From a virus: 23,401 nucleotides of DNA. The stretch's first letter is position 1; each line of letters opens with the position of its first letter. A program made the position numbers and the translations under genes. Below, one piece after another: positions 2,652 to 23,401 of the stretch. The stretch covers positions 1 through 23,401 of the IMG/VR virus record IMGVR_UViG_3300025652_000573; one strand, written 5' to 3'. Below the pieces are notes generated by a model. It was not told where the DNA came from. It ran no database searches and worked only from the letters and a program-made list of their open reading frames with translations.

Positions 2652-3116
2652 TTGATTTTTGAAACAAAAAAAAGTAATGTGTTTATGATAGATGCAGATA
2701 AAATAAGGGATATGGCCATGATATGTGGTCTATATAAATCTTTTCCTCGCTATCAAGACCACACGTACGAGGACGTGCTCCAACATATTTTACCATCCAT
2801 TAGATTAGGACAATACAAAGTGCATTATGAGAATAATTTACCAATTGCTTTTACCAATTGGGCTTTTTTAAATGAAGAAACAGAACAAAAATTTATGAAA
2901 ACAGCAGATTTACACCCTGAAGATTATAACAGTGGAACGATAGCTTGGCATATAGATACTATATGTTGTGGTAATATTAAGAAGGTGATGAAGTGGAGTA
3001 AAGAATACTTTACTAAATTATTAGGATATAATAAACCTGTGAAATGGTTAAGAATGTCAGATAATGAAACAATTAAAAGAATGGCTATTCGCTACACAAA
3101 AGGACACTACGCCTAA
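2652..3116 (+). CDS. HlyC-like toxin-activating lysine acyltransferase family protein
   Basis: The 154-residue product matches the HlyC/RTX-activating acyltransferase pattern over most of its length. LPSIRLGQY (47-55) matches HlyC LPAIQANQY, FTNWAFLNEETE (67-78) matches its CSWANLSLENE region, and EDYNSG...WHID (90-102) matches EDWTSG...WFID. D102 therefore lies at the catalytic Asp (HlyC Asp92). The catalytic His (HlyC His23) is less clear: Tyr34 sits at the expected spacing and His37 three residues later. HlyC transfers a fatty acyl group from acyl-carrier protein to a target lysine. The start is TTG with AGG at 2641-2643, 8 nt upstream; ATG 2685 is an alternative. The stop overlaps the next start. 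The target is unknown, with neighbouring virion proteins as candidates. Confidence 0.75.
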   Translation: MIFETKKSNVFMIDADKIRDMAMICGLYKSFPRYQDHTYEDVLQHILPSIRLGQYKVHYENNLPIAFTNWAFLNEETEQKFMKTADLHPEDYNSGTIAWHIDTICCGNIKKVMKWSKEYFTKLLGYNKPVKWLRMSDNETIKRMAIRYTKGHYA

Positions 3117-4372
3117 TGGGTAAAGTATTTAAAAAAGCAGAAGACGTAGTATCAGACGTATTTAAACCTGTTAACAAAGTTATTTCAAGAATTGTACCTA
3201 ATGAAATTAAACCTTTTATAGGACCCCTAGCATCTGTTTTAGTTCCCGGTGGTGCAGGAATTATGAGTAATTTTGCTAGAGGATATTTTGCTAATCTATT
3301 AGCAGACAGTGCTGTTAATGACGGTAAAACAGATTTAAGAAAAGCTGCATTATCTGGAATATTTAAAACTCTTCCAACTTCTGCAGATATTCGACAAGAT
3401 GTTCCAGCACCAGATAAAACATTTTTACAAAAAGTAGGTACAGAAGGTAAAGAAGTTGCAGCTAAAGTTGGAGACTTTTTAAATCCAAGTGTTTCCGGTG
3501 AAGAGGGTAAAATACTTTCATCAATAGCTAATGTGGGTAAAGCTGCAGGAACACAAGCAGCAGCGGGAGCGGGATTTGATATTTACGATGCTGCTAAAGC
3601 TGCACAAGACGCTTATCAAAATTCAGAAGATGGATATAATACATCTGAGTACTTAGGTTATTTAAAAAGTTATCTCGCCAACGCAGGATATTCACAACAA
3701 CAAATTGATGATTACATAGCCAATAGACCAAGTTACAATAAAGGTGGTCGTGTAGGATTAGCTCTTGGTGGTGATCCTACTAGTCAATCTATAATTGATA
3801 TGTTGACACAAGAATCTATAGAAGAACAAATACCTCCTAGATTACTTATGTCTATACTTGACCCTAAACCTACGGAGTCTGGAAATCCTGCTGATACCTT
3901 AATAGATTTACCGGGTGAATTAGAAGATGTGGACGATAGAAGTTTCGCAGGTGGACCTAAAAGTTTATTAGACCCTAGTGAAATGATAGCAGACAATGCC
4001 GGTGGCGGTTTAGGTAAAATGCAACAACAATTAATACAAATGGGAGTTAATACTTCTCAAATGTCACCAACTGAAATTATGGAAATATATAACAGAATGA
4101 TGGGTGGAGAATCAGGACAATATTTTGGTGCTAAAAAAGGTGGACTTGCAACTTTAAAAATGGGTGGTATGCCTTCTATGGAAATGGACTATAGAGGCGG
4201 TGGCTTTATACCTGTGGGGTCTAAAGAGAAAGCTGATGATGTCCCCGCAAGATTGTCAAAAAATGAATTTGTTATGACGGCTGATGCCGTTAGAGCTGCT
4301 GGTGGTGGTAGTGTTAATAAAGGAGCACAAAGAATGTATCAATTAATGAATCAATTAGAGAGTAAAGTATAA
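3116..4372 (+). CDS. Virion structural/internal protein with Gly-rich motifs, 418 aa
   Basis: The start ATG overlaps the preceding stop. A helical N-terminus (KKAEDVVSDVFKPVNKVISR) is followed by a hydrophobic Gly-rich segment at about 33-64 that could interact with membrane. A KGGRVGLALGG motif lies at 209-219. The C-terminal 50 residues follow the pattern KADDVPARLSKNEFVMTADA then Gly-rich then a helix, which recurs in structural proteins of many marine phages. No enzyme motif is visible. Together with the next three genes it probably forms the internal core or ejection proteins. The assignment is inferred from position and composition; the exact role is not known. Confidence 0.6.
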   Translation: MGKVFKKAEDVVSDVFKPVNKVISRIVPNEIKPFIGPLASVLVPGGAGIMSNFARGYFANLLADSAVNDGKTDLRKAALSGIFKTLPTSADIRQDVPAPDKTFLQKVGTEGKEVAAKVGDFLNPSVSGEEGKILSSIANVGKAAGTQAAAGAGFDIYDAAKAAQDAYQNSEDGYNTSEYLGYLKSYLANAGYSQQQIDDYIANRPSYNKGGRVGLALGGDPTSQSIIDMLTQESIEEQIPPRLLMSILDPKPTESGNPADTLIDLPGELEDVDDRSFAGGPKSLLDPSEMIADNAGGGLGKMQQQLIQMGVNTSQMSPTEIMEIYNRMMGGESGQYFGAKKGGLATLKMGGMPSMEMDYRGGGFIPVGSKEKADDVPARLSKNEFVMTADAVRAAGGGSVNKGAQRMYQLMNQLESKV

Positions 4373-9400: not shown

Positions 9401-10595
9401 TGCTGTCGTTGAAGGAGCAAAGGCTTTATATAATGTTACTGAAGAAGAAATGGAAGCTTTAAGAAGATATGTTCCTAGTTGGTCTAAAAATTCTACTTTA
9501 ATTCCAATTAGAAATAAAGAAACAGGTGACTTAAAATACATAGATTTTTCTCGCACTAATGTTTTTGATACAATAACAAGACCTGTTCAAACAGTTCTTA
9601 ACGCTGTTCAAGAAGGTAGAACAGATGAAGACGGTATCATGAATGATTTTATGAGAGGTATGTTTGAATCAACAAAAGAAGTAGCTAGTCCTTTTATTAG
9701 TGAATCTATTTGGACTGAAGCTTCTATGGATATTATAGCTAGGGGAGGTAGAACTAGAGAAGGTAAAGTTCTTTATACTGATCAAACTCCTTTTGGAGAA
9801 AAAGCCTCTATTATAATAAAACATTTGGTTGAATCACAAACACCGGGTTCTGCTGCTGCTTTTAATAGATTAGGTTTAACTATTAAAGGTGAAACAGATG
9901 ATTATGGTAGAAGTTTTGAATTAGGTGATGAGTTAGCAGGACTTGCTGGTTTTAGAGTAATACCGGTAGATACAGAAAAAGCAATTAATTTTAAAATAGC
10001 TAAATATCAAACAGGAATTAGAAATTCTAGAAGAGAATTTACATCTAAGTTATTAAAAGGTGGTGACATAACCCCTGGTGATATTGTTGAAAGGTATCAA
10101 ATAGCAAATAAAGCTGCTTATAAAGTTAAACAAGAAATGATGAAAGATTATTTTGCAGCTTTAAAATTAGGTGCTTCTCCTTTTAGTGTTAAAAAATCTT
10201 TTGAGGAAAGAGGAGTCAAAACAGATTTAAGATTTCTACAAAGAGGAAGATTTAAACCTCTTGAAATAAGTGATAGCGTTAAAGATAAGTTTGCAGAAAA
10301 TGCTAGAAACATAGGTAAAGCTAATCCTTATATTGCAGCTAATAGTTATATAAATAGTATGCTTAGAGTATATAAAAATACTCCGTTAGGTTTACCTGAA
10401 TTAACAACCTTACCTAATCCGTTTAAAGAAGTAGAATTACCTGCTAACGATACTTCTTATTTTCAACAAATTAGTAGTGATCCTTCAACAATAACTCAAG
10501 TAGCAGGATCGACTATTCCTATTGAAAATCAAAATAAACTTGGTACAACTAATAATGCTACAATCAACAGCTTTGGTCAAATAGTATCAAAATGA
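6423..10595 (+). CDS. Large internal virion / DNA-ejection protein, 1390 aa
   Basis: This is the longest gene in the window. Its ribosome binding site is AAAGGAG at 6411-6417, 5 nt before ATG. The size, Lys-rich helical character and place just before the lysis genes match the giant internal core proteins of podoviruses (T7 gp16-like role), which are injected with the DNA. Hydrophobic Gly/Ala-rich stretches lie near residues 21-55, 142-160 and 200-213 and could insert into membrane. I found no lytic transglycosylase signature. Residues 623-640 and 641-658 are an imperfect tandem duplication. The C-terminal part has conserved-looking segments such as TPFGEKASIIIKHLVESQTP. The role is inferred from size and position. 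Confidence 0.65.
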   Translation: MADNERYIVKGYEEPENEVGTITSILAGIGSGLIKIPEGLFSLGATLIDLGAGTNSAAKVEAFFDKINPLDELAESTAAGKITETLVNLGVPAIGAASRAAKIAERALTAKGAGTYFTLNNTALSKAGKQAAQLNAKGKTAKFAAGALGAGIADGVFIADVSEVGSIGDLIGGPTKINREGKDFDPGRDLLNRLKFGTESVLFSGVIGGVGASIKKMANSNKMLSRSTKKIDKFFDKFAGKFRSRGDLDEVAFLEGKRLEGFRERDINRATEISRNITKEVNSWFPSFKGKLYRTPKGQLTDNQKKKKIFKEINDILTDSSGVTTKGVDQVTFDAQTKARQFAKDQFEESVNKKLGIPLPKKREDLFEFKFGELGNAQKEKLKKILKSPEYGLSKVEVDKIFDSMNSIRKEWDGAFTSLGRNMNPTELKEFKEVISEKVTDILTSNFEIFGNKSVVPLFNYKPTAQLANKFKQTLIDNNGLTSEQAETAMNTILETARLPNKKSLAVLKGRSPSALFDLPEELVNKSILNDSAYNSFIKKPNRTVVSFNDLTPQFKKSVEELYGKQNNAAITILGATERLSILARENQYFKDIFNASNKLVRDSQKLSKEQMIIKAQQSIANGGEGLTQKQAFEKYVDYRGGEGLTKEQATKKYKIFFDPDEYQNINPETGLREGGGKRIALNEARKIWGKDVKRIQFNMPDESLVGGTNPLRDVYTSTAIADAVTGASNDIISNSNAFGYIWNNFVLLPKATSQIAKTILSPITHVRNFVSGLNFVTANGNIPSGKAFKRAYQSLQIPMKGARTPEGNDFYRMLQEKKVVSSNVRYGDTQELLKKMTFLGDNINPNNLVSSLFNKAKTITKIGEEFYTAGDDVWKMTSFIMEHQKILDDYAKYGIKISSEEAIDKAANIVKNTVPNYNYVGSFVKSTRKFPVGNFVSFPAEMIRVSTNIVEQGLKDINESFRLANGQIVYPRRKSGYRRLFGFGVTATAVPYAVVEGAKALYNVTEEEMEALRRYVPSWSKNSTLIPIRNKETGDLKYIDFSRTNVFDTITRPVQTVLNAVQEGRTDEDGIMNDFMRGMFESTKEVASPFISESIWTEASMDIIARGGRTREGKVLYTDQTPFGEKASIIIKHLVESQTPGSAAAFNRLGLTIKGETDDYGRSFELGDELAGLAGFRVIPVDTEKAINFKIAKYQTGIRNSRREFTSKLLKGGDITPGDIVERYQIANKAAYKVKQEMMKDYFAALKLGASPFSVKKSFEERGVKTDLRFLQRGRFKPLEISDSVKDKFAENARNIGKANPYIAANSYINSMLRVYKNTPLGLPELTTLPNPFKEVELPANDTSYFQQISSDPSTITQVAGSTIPIENQNKLGTTNNATINSFGQIVSK
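8289..8396 (+). repeat. Tandem 54-bp imperfect duplication inside the internal virion protein
   Basis: Two adjacent in-frame 54-base units encode GGEGLTQKQAFEKYVDYR and GGEGLTKEQATKKYKIFF. Both share the GGEGLT(Q/K)(K/E)QA..KY core, and the DNA matches best at the start of each unit (ggtggtgaagg). This looks like a local duplication that has since diverged, adding one helical repeat to the protein. Confidence 0.7.
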
Positions 10596-10816
10596 CAATA
10601 GAACCTAGAACACAAAGGGAGCATATTATTTCATTACACGGACATATTACAGGAGTTAAAAAGGAGATTAACGAGATTAAAAATAATCACCTTAAACATA
10701 TGCATGAAGATATTGATAAGTTGGGTGGTAAGATAGACAAAATCTATTGGGTTGTATTATCTACAGTGGGGGCTGTAGGATTAATGTTTATAGAAACTTT
10801 ATTGGGGATGTTATGA
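10592..10816 (+). CDS. XhlA-like membrane-anchored lysis protein, 74 aa
   Basis: The start overlaps the internal virion gene stop (ATGA). The N-terminal 50 residues form a charged coiled-coil-like helix (HITGVKKEINEIKNNHLKHM, then DKLGGKIDK). A single transmembrane helix follows at about 51-72 (YWVVLSTVGAVGLMFIETLL). This layout matches the hemolysin XhlA/holin-associated family. The next gene, a peptidoglycan peptidase, begins within its stop codon, so the two form a lysis pair. The protein may be the holin or a holin partner. The layout is visible in the sequence; family membership is inferred. Confidence 0.65.
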   Translation: MTIEPRTQREHIISLHGHITGVKKEINEIKNNHLKHMHEDIDKLGGKIDKIYWVVLSTVGAVGLMFIETLLGML

Positions 10817-11274
10817 AACTATCAGAAAACTTTACACTATCAGAGATGACTAAATCTCAAACAGCTATTAGAAAAAATATAGATAATACACCGACAGACG
10901 AACACATAGAAAATTTAAAACATGTAGCTGAAACTTTATTACAACCTATCAGAAATCATTTTGGTAAGCCTGTGACTGTGTCATCTGGATATCGAAGCGT
11001 GGATCTTTGTGAAGCCATTGGTTCTTCTTCTAGATCTCAGCATGCTAAAGGAGAAGCTGCTGACTTTGAAATAGGTGGAGTAGATAATCAAGAGCTTGGT
11101 TTGTGGATTCGAGATAACATCGAATACGATCAATTAATTTTAGAATTTTATAATGACGGTGATCCTAGTTCCGGGTGGATACATTGTTCAATGGTCAAGG
11201 ACCGTGAACCGAGGAAGAGTACTTTAAAAGCTATTAAGAATAACGGACAAACTCAATACGTCCCTTGGTCTTAA
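10813..11274 (+). CDS. Endolysin, peptidase M15 family (zinc carboxy/endopeptidase), 153 aa
   Basis: The product is a peptidase M15_3-type domain. The zinc ligands are visible as His77 and Asp84 in SQHAKGEAADFE and His124 in GWIHCS. The upstream SSGYRS (58-62 region) is also typical of the family. These enzymes cut peptide cross-links of peptidoglycan and release phage progeny. ATG 10813 overlaps the previous stop (ATGA) and gives the normal N-terminus LSENFTLSEMTKS. An in-frame ATG at 10747 would add 22 residues lying inside the previous gene and is unlikely. There is no signal peptide, so export would need the membrane protein just upstream or another holin. The stop shares bases with the converging gene stop. 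Confidence 0.9.
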   Translation: MKLSENFTLSEMTKSQTAIRKNIDNTPTDEHIENLKHVAETLLQPIRNHFGKPVTVSSGYRSVDLCEAIGSSSRSQHAKGEAADFEIGGVDNQELGLWIRDNIEYDQLILEFYNDGDPSSGWIHCSMVKDREPRKSTLKAIKNNGQTQYVPWS

Positions 11275-20977: not shown

Positions 20978-21613
20978 ATGTCATTCTTAGTAGCAAACGT
21001 ACCACCTACCAAAGTATTTGTTAAGAAACAATATCTCTATGATCTACAAAAAGGTCATGGTGAATTTGTAGAAGGTTTATGGGTTACATGTAAATCCATA
21101 GAAGGTAGAGCTTTATATTTTGAAACATATCTACCAGAGTATGGAGCACTTTATGATAAGCTTCCTATCTCTGCTTTTGTATCAGAACCTACTCAGTTAG
21201 ATTTACCTTTAGAAGAATTAGAGTTATGGGACGCATTTAGCTATCACATGACTGTGATCAGCAAAGCAAGTATTGCAGGATGTAAAGCAAAATACTTAGC
21301 GCCTTCTAAAAATTGGCATACAGGTGAGTATTTATTTACTATAGATAATTGTCACTCAGATGTTAACACAATGAATAGTGGTTATTCTGAGATCCCGGAA
21401 GAACATAAATCCTTTAACATATTAGGATTAGATAATAAACACTTTGCAGCACAGCCAAACAATCGATGTTTATTTTTTGATAAATCATTAACACCAGCAA
21501 AATTAAAAGTTCCTGATTTCAAAGTATCTACCATTGAATACAATGTAGAGACAGAAAGTAAGTGGACCGCAGGAGATGACGATCATTATTTTTATGATCT
21601 TAAAGAACAATGA
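20978..21613 (+). CDS. Conserved phage protein downstream of polA, 211 aa
   Basis: The ATG directly abuts the polymerase stop. The product has a beta-rich N-terminus (MSFLVANVPPTKVFVKKQYL) and conserved-looking stretches such as ALYFETYLPEYGALYDKLPI, LELWDAFSYHMTVISKASI and CLFFDKSLTPAKLKVPDFKV. It ends in an acidic, aromatic tail (DDDHYFYDLKEQ). I recall such proteins next to DNA polymerase A in many marine phages, always unnamed. The linkage suggests a replication or nucleotide-related accessory role, or a polymerase-binding factor. No catalytic motif could be assigned. Confidence 0.65.
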   Translation: MSFLVANVPPTKVFVKKQYLYDLQKGHGEFVEGLWVTCKSIEGRALYFETYLPEYGALYDKLPISAFVSEPTQLDLPLEELELWDAFSYHMTVISKASIAGCKAKYLAPSKNWHTGEYLFTIDNCHSDVNTMNSGYSEIPEEHKSFNILGLDNKHFAAQPNNRCLFFDKSLTPAKLKVPDFKVSTIEYNVETESKWTAGDDDHYFYDLKEQ

Positions 21614-22551: not shown

Positions 22552-22690
22552 AGAGATAACAAGTAAAATGCCAAGAGATAAAGTGGAAGAACTTCTCATG
22601 GCTAGTCTCGAAGAAGTAAAACGTTTACTCAAACTTCTAAAAGATCATGGTTATGAAGATGAAGACATTGATGATAGGACCATAAACTAA
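22520..22690 (+). CDS. Small helical protein of unknown function, 56 aa
   Basis: ATG 22520 lies 32 bases inside the previous gene, and the stop shares a base with the methyltransferase ATG (TAATG). The product is almost all charged helix (KVEELLMASLEEVKRLLKLL) with an acidic end (YEDEDIDDRTIN). The coupling to the methyltransferase start suggests it helps its translation, or encodes a small partner. Nothing more specific can be read from the sequence. Confidence 0.55.
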   Translation: MEKLLDLKKLKEITSKMPRDKVEELLMASLEEVKRLLKLLKDHGYEDEDIDDRTIN

Positions 22691-23401
22691 TGTATCAACA
22701 CTTAGATTTATTTAGTGGTATTGGTGGCTTTAGTCTAGGATTGGAAGCAACAGGAGAATTTGAAACTGTTGCTTTCTGTGACTACGATCCCTTTTGTCAA
22801 AAAGTATTAAGAAAACATTGGGAGAATGTTCCCATTTATGGAGATATAAAGGAGCTTACAAATGAAAAACTCAAAGCAAATGGAATTAATAACATCGACA
22901 TCATCACAGGAGGATACCCTTGCCAACCTTTCTCCGTTGCAGGTAACAAAAAAGGTGAGCAAGATCCGAGACACCTCTGGCCAGAGAATTTTAGACTTGT
23001 CAAAGAGTGTCGACCGACTTGGGTCATTGGAGAAAACGTTGGTGGACACATTAAACTCGGTCTTGACACCGTACTCAAGGACTTGGAGAGTGAAGGTTAC
23101 TCCGCAAGGACGTTTAGTATTTCAGCTGCTAGCATCGGTGCCAACCACAAAAGAGAAAGAGTCTGGATTGTGGCCCACTCCAACGACAGACTCAGCAAAC
23201 AATCGAACGAAGAAGTACGCACAGGGAGGGACACCTTTGACAATGGCAATTCAGACATGGCCAACTCCAGCAGCAAGAGATTGGAAAGACACAGGAGAGA
23301 ACACGAACTACGAGAAGATAGCGAAGAAGGGAAAGTTAGCAGGAGCAGTGAAGATGTGGCCGACTCCGAGGGCATCAAATCCTGGGAGCAGACCGAATGG
23401 G
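22690..23401 (+). CDS. C5-cytosine DNA methyltransferase, 3' end beyond the window
   Basis: The gene starts at ATG 22690 (TAATG) and stays open to the edge; 237 residues are visible. Motif I is DLFSGIGGFSLG (6-17), motif IV is GGYPCQPFSVAG (74-85, catalytic Cys78), motif VI is GENV (114-117) and motif VIII is NHKRERVWIVAHS (152-164). The enzyme methylates cytosine at C5 using S-adenosylmethionine. Motifs IX and X and the rest of the target-recognition region would lie downstream. After residue 164 the frame is very rich in Ser, Arg and Glu and repeats (V/M)A(H/N/D)S three times. A second frame is also open here, so the true C-terminal reading is uncertain. GC rises to about 49% from 22921. 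No partner restriction enzyme is visible. Confidence 0.9.
   Translation, partial: MYQHLDLFSGIGGFSLGLEATGEFETVAFCDYDPFCQKVLRKHWENVPIYGDIKELTNEKLKANGINNIDIITGGYPCQPFSVAGNKKGEQDPRHLWPENFRLVKECRPTWVIGENVGGHIKLGLDTVLKDLESEGYSARTFSISAASIGANHKRERVWIVAHSNDRLSKQSNEEVRTGRDTFDNGNSDMANSSSKRLERHRREHELREDSEEGKVSRSSEDVADSEGIKSWEQTEW
22848..22854 (+). promoter_or_regulatory. Internal Shine-Dalgarno for an overlapping +1 frame gene
   Basis: AAAGGAG lies inside the methyltransferase gene, 7 nt before ATG 22862 of the +1 frame. An in-frame TAA (22847-22849) of that same +1 frame overlaps it, so the overlapping frame opens just at this site. It is as good as the best ribosome binding sites of the ordinary genes here. 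Confidence 0.65.
22862..23401 (+). CDS. Overlapping +1-frame gene nested in the methyltransferase; WPTP-repeat protein (partial)
   Basis: This second plus-strand frame is open from ATG 22862 to the window edge (180 codons) wholly inside the cytosine methyltransferase gene. It has its own AAAGGAG site. The product starts MKNSKQMELITSTSSQEDTL. It contains KIRDTSGQRILDL (34-46) and a beta-like segment SRTWRVKVTPQGRLVFQL (72-89). WPTP follows three times at 104-107, 133-136 and 166-169, within LWPTPTTDSA, TWPTPAARDW and MWPTPRASNP. Its residue usage looks more protein-like than the Ser/Arg/Glu-rich tail of the methyltransferase frame. I recall WPTP-rich sequences in phage proteins linked to cytosine methyltransferases. 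It could be a separate overlapping gene, or the target-recognition part reached by frameshift. The stop is not in the window. Confidence 0.6.
   Translation, partial: MKNSKQMELITSTSSQEDTLANLSPLQVTKKVSKIRDTSGQRILDLSKSVDRLGSLEKTLVDTLNSVLTPYSRTWRVKVTPQGRLVFQLLASVPTTKEKESGLWPTPTTDSANNRTKKYAQGGTPLTMAIQTWPTPAARDWKDTGENTNYEKIAKKGKLAGAVKMWPTPRASNPGSRPNG
23171..23367 (+). repeat. Three copies of TGGCCNACTCC in the dual-frame region
   Basis: TGGCCCACTCC (23171-23181), TGGCCAACTCC (23258-23268) and TGGCCGACTCC (23357-23367) are spaced 87 and 99 bases apart, multiples of three. The only variable base is third-position in the +1 frame (WPTP kept) but first-position in the methyltransferase frame (His, Asn, Asp). 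The repeat is therefore conserved as protein in the +1 frame, not in the methyltransferase frame. Confidence 0.8.

Follow-up and report, generated by a model that had tools for sequence, protein, structure and literature searches.

The end of this marine phage record raises the question of whether one stretch of DNA encodes two proteins in two frames of the same strand, and what the second protein might do. The window is the whole virus record of 23,401 bases, and its end cuts both genes of the pair. The frame-0 gene (alpha) is a C5 cytosine DNA methyltransferase (MTase) that starts with ATG and stays open up to 23400, with its 3' end beyond the window. The +1-frame gene (beta) also starts with ATG and has 180 stop-free codons up to the window end. 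An earlier note had read MTase motifs IV, VI and VIII in the overlap and a +1 ORF whose ATG follows AAAGGAG at 7-nt spacing. The motif positions and the ORF listing bear out both readings (Table 1). Contig L006 shows 1 mismatch to the window in 712 shared nt and contains both genes complete. Its MTase has 348 aa and its +1 protein has 293 aa, with GGGTLNPTWVEWLMGYPTGWTDLSPSE close to the C-terminus.

Table 1. Features of the two overlapping genes in the window.
Feature	Position	Strand	Basis or remark
Alpha, frame-0 gene, C5 cytosine DNA methyltransferase	22690-23400	+	ORF, Pfam, PHROGs, L006 counterpart
MTase motif I DLFSGIGG, frame 0	22705-22728	+	sequence motif
Shine-Dalgarno (SD) AAAGGAG of beta	22848-22854	+	7-nt spacing to ATG 22862
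Beta, +1-frame gene, phrog_1008 family	22862-23401	+	ORF, phrog_1008, synonymous suppression, conservation in relatives
MTase motif IV GGYPCQPF (catalytic Cys), frame 0	22909-22932	+	sequence motif
MTase motif VI GENV, frame 0	23029-23040	+	sequence motif
Conserved predicted beta-hairpin of beta, TWRVKVTPQGRLVFQL	23081-23128	+	pLDDT about 82-87, best-predicted part of beta model
MTase motif VIII KRERVW, frame 0	23149-23166	+	last conserved catalytic element ahead of the unconstrained middle
WPTP repeat 1 of beta	23171-23182	+	over frame-0 VAHS
WPTP repeat 2 of beta	23258-23269	+	over frame-0 MANS
WPTP repeat 3 of beta	23357-23368	+	over frame-0 VADS

Elsewhere in the window, positions 20978-21613 give a strong match to phrog_3704 (1.2e-93), which has the label ferredoxin, and adjoin the DNA polymerase gene. 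This may possibly be an auxiliary metabolic gene, or the family may be wrongly labelled. The ORF at 10747-11274 belongs to an endolysin family (phrog_894). Counted from its first listed start, it overlaps the tail of the small ORF before it (10592-10816), which lies in another frame.

A +1 frame of this length had been considered unlikely by chance, and codon randomization agrees. When synonymous codons were resampled with the phage's own usage, the +1 frame acquired 13.4 stops on average, and not one of the 20,000 draws was free of them. A shuffle restricted to the synonymous codons of the overlap, so that its biased composition is retained, gave 3.6 stops and a P(0) of 0.0018 for the window locus. 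The same shuffle on 78 relatives gave a median P(0) of about 0.002 per locus. GC3 is 0.16 in the phage genes; in the MTase it is 0.23 upstream of the +1 start and 0.50 in the overlap. The SD of the +1 gene is written in the frame-0 Lys-Glu codons AAG GAG, against the preference of the phage (codon counts in the window phage of 369:55 for AAA:AAG and 279:56 for GAA:GAG). The +1 start codon is ATG, GTG or TTG and is located 44 or 50 nt upstream of the PCQ codons in most loci. An SD match of at least 5 nt precedes 79% of the +1 starts, compared with 6.2% of internal start codons. The conserved SD and start codon are an indirect sign that beta is made.

Since a search based on the +1 frame would bias the selection, viral MTases were chosen by frame-0 motifs only (GYPCQPF, RLKSLGN), and the tests were repeated on the loci chosen in this way. 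This resulted in 80 loci, 79 of which have a readable MTase. The earlier note had named frequent +1 stops in homologues as evidence against a gene pair; the long +1 ORF is kept in 79/79 of these MTases. Their +2 frame contains 7-33 stops each. The start and the SD, which the same note had proposed to follow in homologues, are conserved as well, and so is the C-terminal motif. The LNP...WLMG.P signature is found by a simple pattern in 73 of the 79, and the remainder end at a contig edge or vary the pattern. In a set of 18 host genomes, the +1 ORF occurs only in C5 MTases whose tails resemble VGRVADGVPxRVDRLxxLGNAV or the related form LAHGxxxRVGRLRAYGNAI; those that end differently show 4-40 stops in that frame.

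Loci selected through the +1 family lead to the same arrangement. All 80 such prokaryote loci have a C5 MTase lying over the +1 gene in the frame relation expected, and this overlap takes up 88% or more of the +1 open frame in 77 of them. In the remaining three (L229, L243, L245), the +1 open frame extends past the MTase overlap. The family is present in 22/295 Enterobacteriaceae genomes, where an MTase again lies over the +1 gene in the readable loci. No +1 family member standing alone, away from a C5 MTase, was found among the 80 prokaryote loci or in the enterobacterial genomes. The record titles name Bacillota, Pseudomonadota, Bacteroidota, Nitrospirota, Actinomycetota and Synergistota among other phyla, and many records are metagenome bins. 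The neighbours of the loci include phage replication genes, integrases and other MTases. In a PADLOC scan of these neighbours, the 25 families listed were mostly other MTases, with no nuclease family among them. Judging from the sequences compared, phages and prophages from many bacterial phyla have retained the pair.

Several loci differ from this general pattern or recur. The enterobacterial loci L310-L312 and L314/L321 are divergent pairs with short +1 proteins of 223-247 aa. The +1 protein of L314 starts with MSWLFSQALAEEYSAATCSDG, an N-terminus unlike the others, and its MTase has the tail DRIKALGNGQVPRVAAAAF. In L229 (a MAG contig, 2703-4002), the MTase frame stops early and the +1 frame continues into the MTase C-terminus (NAVVPQQFYPVFRAIAEIE). 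It is as if a frameshift had joined both frames, through either a sequencing error or a natural fusion. One Roseovarius MAG chromosome has five copies of the MTase locus (L197, L199-L202) with identical match statistics, all in one assembly.

The substitution rates separate the two frames. The overlap test proposed earlier compares synonymous rates inside and outside the +1 ORF. In 70 unique MTases, nearly all from viral-contig loci, four-fold-site differences drop from 0.57 upstream of the +1 start to 0.17 within the ORF and are 0.42 downstream of the +1 stop. The suppression is confined to the overlap, and this also holds in 32 independent pairs. These pairs were taken from the frame-0-selected set and compared by frame in a frame-blind DNA alignment. 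In the catalytic part, the amino-acid sequences differ by 0.134 in frame 0, 0.216 in +1 and 0.262 in +2. In the middle region the values are 0.391, 0.160 and 0.382, and in the IX/X region 0.198, 0.178 and 0.276, respectively. Outside the overlap, frame 0 differs by 0.15-0.18, +1 by 0.51 and +2 by 0.50. An earlier, larger set of non-independent pairs agrees with these results. The +1 frame also has codon periodicity, with its third positions varying most (0.326 vs 0.140 and 0.102). Taken at the level of sequence, these rates demonstrate that both frames are conserved coding sequence and that the middle region is constrained as beta and not as alpha, with frame 0 there drifting like the unused third frame. 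The overlap is almost certainly a real dual-coding gene pair, as the earlier note had proposed: the ORF, start, SD and C-terminal motif are kept, and the synonymous suppression lies only inside the +1 ORF.

Alpha belongs to the C5 MTases. It matches Pfam DNA_methylase (3.1e-44) and phrog_363 (2.1e-71), and it has motifs I, IV (PCQ), VI (ENV) and VIII in the window and motif X (LKSLGNS) in L006. The alignment of alpha to ordinary C5 MTases ends at motif VIII. Matrix scores for the classical motif IX are at shuffle level in 32/32 frame-0 proteins, and alpha has no evident motif IX. In the AlphaFold model, residues 1-171 are mostly folded and the motif X helix has a pLDDT of about 90-95. Residues 172-329 are below 50 except for one residue. 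A folded target-recognition domain is therefore absent from the model of this region, which was built from an alignment of only 32 rows that is weak in the middle.

Beta has an N-terminal part with the beta-hairpin, WPTP repeats in variable number, and the C-terminal LNPxWVEWLMGxPxGWTDL of the phrog_1008 family. A comparison of the +1 translation with phage proteins, as had been suggested, found this family (1.7e-28 for the window part and 7.2e-41 for the 293 aa of L006), which is matched by 95/95 aligned +1 relatives. The WPTP repeats pointed out earlier are present, three of them in the window, but they are not an isolated motif and belong to the phrog_1008 family. The repeats occur in both frames because WPTP overlies VAHS, MANS and VADS of frame 0. 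No relative of beta was detected in Pfam, NCBIfam or PDB. The AlphaFold model of beta is weak (mean pLDDT of 60.5) and poor except for the beta-hairpin around residues 72-92, and Foldseek of this model against PDB gave no match below E 0.27.

The possibility that beta is a displaced MTase half recognizable by homology was also considered, but an hhalign profile comparison with ordinary C5 MTases gave nothing. With a motif-IX matrix, the LNPxWVEWLMGxPxGW region is the best window in 40/95 +1 proteins, with scores that do not beat shuffles. This region typically falls in the LTPRExARLMGFPDxF register of motif IX, again not significantly compared with shuffled sequences. The top score of all is at the C-terminus of L312 (ECYLPDMARLLMGFPQGWSY). 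Across Pfam, NCBIfam, PDB and the profile comparison with C5 MTases, there is no sequence evidence that the +1 protein is itself a methyltransferase.

Taken together, the locus probably encodes a C5 MTase split into two polypeptides like M.EcoHK31I, with alpha in frame 0 and beta in frame +1. Frame 0 would provide alpha, with the catalytic large domain (motifs I-VIII), an unconstrained linker of ~155 residues, and motif X. Frame +1 would provide beta, translated separately from its own SD and from a start codon that shortly precedes motif IV. Beta may bind alpha and may supply the small domain that alpha is without, including target recognition and the role of motif IX; the two would therefore form one split enzyme. 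Such an enzyme could methylate the phage's own DNA against host restriction. Among the roles proposed earlier for the second product (partner, specificity or anti-restriction protein), that of a partner or specificity protein fits beta best, with M.EcoHK31I as the precedent. It is also possible, with the balance leaning somewhat against it, that the recognition half has moved to the other frame in a whole clade of phage C5 MTases, leaving frame 0 as a stop-free linker, and that the number of WPTP repeats may vary the target.

Beta could instead be a real gene product that is not a subunit, such as a separate anti-restriction, anti-MTase or host-takeover protein. The phage and prophage context is compatible with this, and so is the lack of detectable similarity of beta to MTase, Pfam, NCBIfam or PDB proteins. 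However, beta was not found apart from a C5 MTase in the loci surveyed, and the MTase that carries it is without a predicted recognition domain and motif IX. These two observations together point to mutual dependence, and a separate function is considered rather unlikely.

Programmed ribosomal frameshifting could also fuse the +1 middle to alpha and result in one MTase with a +1-read recognition domain. This would match a catalytic part conserved mainly in frame 0 and a middle conserved only in +1. It does not account for the conserved SD and start codon (ATG, GTG or TTG) that the +1 frame has for itself ahead of motif IV, nor for frame 0 staying open through to motif X. The +1 frame is also constrained over the catalytic part, where wobble differences are 0.18 vs 0.44 outside. 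Frameshifting is therefore improbable.

The +1 frame might be open merely from the amino-acid and codon constraints of the MTase, with no product. Some +1 residues are indeed forced by conserved frame-0 motifs, and WPTP lies over VADS, MANS and VAHS; yet about 13 stops would be expected, wobble sites are frozen only inside the ORF, it is the +1 reading of the middle that is conserved and not that of frame 0, and other C5 MTases are without the +1 ORF, which makes this very improbable. An RNA or DNA structural element in place of a protein is equally hard to credit: it could freeze wobble sites as well, but the constraint is periodic in +1 codons, has the same limits as the ORF and permits repeats to be gained or lost in phase.

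The split-enzyme interpretation and the second gene itself affect how these loci are annotated. The +1 protein is a member of phrog_1008, which has the label 'DNA methyltransferase' in PHROGs v4, but this label names the gene in the other frame. The families phrog_1008, phrog_31772 and phrog_10223 and PADLOC PDLC03718 all have the +1 family labelled or matched as a methyltransferase. These labels are apparently a carry-over from the overlapping gene, and they may lead automatic counts to overstate the number of phage MTases. A PADLOC orphan-MTase model matches 8/95 +1 proteins weakly (best 1.9e-5) and may contain frame-confused sequences. The +1 CDS is annotated in part of the records only, with no function given, and most records list the MTase alone. 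The 'Mte8-like protein' of coliphages K1ind2, K1ind1 and K1H is the same +1 ORF, given as its own CDS within the MTase gene. Paenibacillus larvae phages have it annotated as a second CDS inside the MTase gene, and gene 58 of N15 carries it without annotation. No paper on the overlap was found in the open-licence literature, where 'Mte8' has one unexplained mention.

It is rare for a long same-strand overlap to be conserved across phyla. In this case, a second gene, omitted or mislabelled in most annotations, lies concealed in a common phage accessory gene. Should beta prove to be the missing half, many phage 'DNA cytosine methyltransferases' would be expected to show no activity or an altered one when only frame 0 is expressed, and the annotated protein would not suffice to predict their specificities. 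The opposite constraint in the two parts of the gene, with frame 0 held in the catalytic part and +1 in the middle, also provides a clean natural system for the study of dual coding.

Compared with monomeric C5 MTases of the M.HhaI/M.HaeIII type, positions 2-166 of the frame-0 profile align to motifs I-VIII of M.HhaI (1.7e-30). The difference is that the recognition domain and motif IX are unaligned, and ordinary C5 MTases are without the +1 ORF. A Klebsiella aerogenes plasmid examined for an EaeI-like system was phage-like and uninformative.

The small polypeptide of M.EcoHK31I is encoded in another frame inside the gene of the large polypeptide, and the small polypeptide here is likewise encoded in another frame inside the gene of the large one. 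The two-polypeptide principle has precedent, and its clade-wide, frame-swapped form appears to be undescribed. M.EcoHK31I and M.AquI are both natural two-polypeptide C5 MTases (PMC3404938). M.AquI (CYCGRG) is split in the variable region after motif VIII, and its small subunit has motifs IX and X (PMC3404938). It would resemble the present pair in being a C5 MTase in two polypeptides. However, its small subunit continues the ordinary enzyme order, whereas here motif X stays in alpha and beta is without detectable MTase homology. The large polypeptide of M.EcoHK31I (YGGCCR) contains motifs I-VIII and X, and only motif IX is in the smaller polypeptide (PMC3404938). Alpha likewise has motifs I-VIII and X without IX. 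The present pairs differ in being phage orphans with WPTP repeats of variable number. They also seem to differ in the middle of alpha, which is unconstrained and predicted to be unfolded, with the substitution signal placing the functional sequence of this stretch in beta, whereas the predicted recognition domain of M.EcoHK31I is placed in the large polypeptide and not in its beta (PMC3404938).
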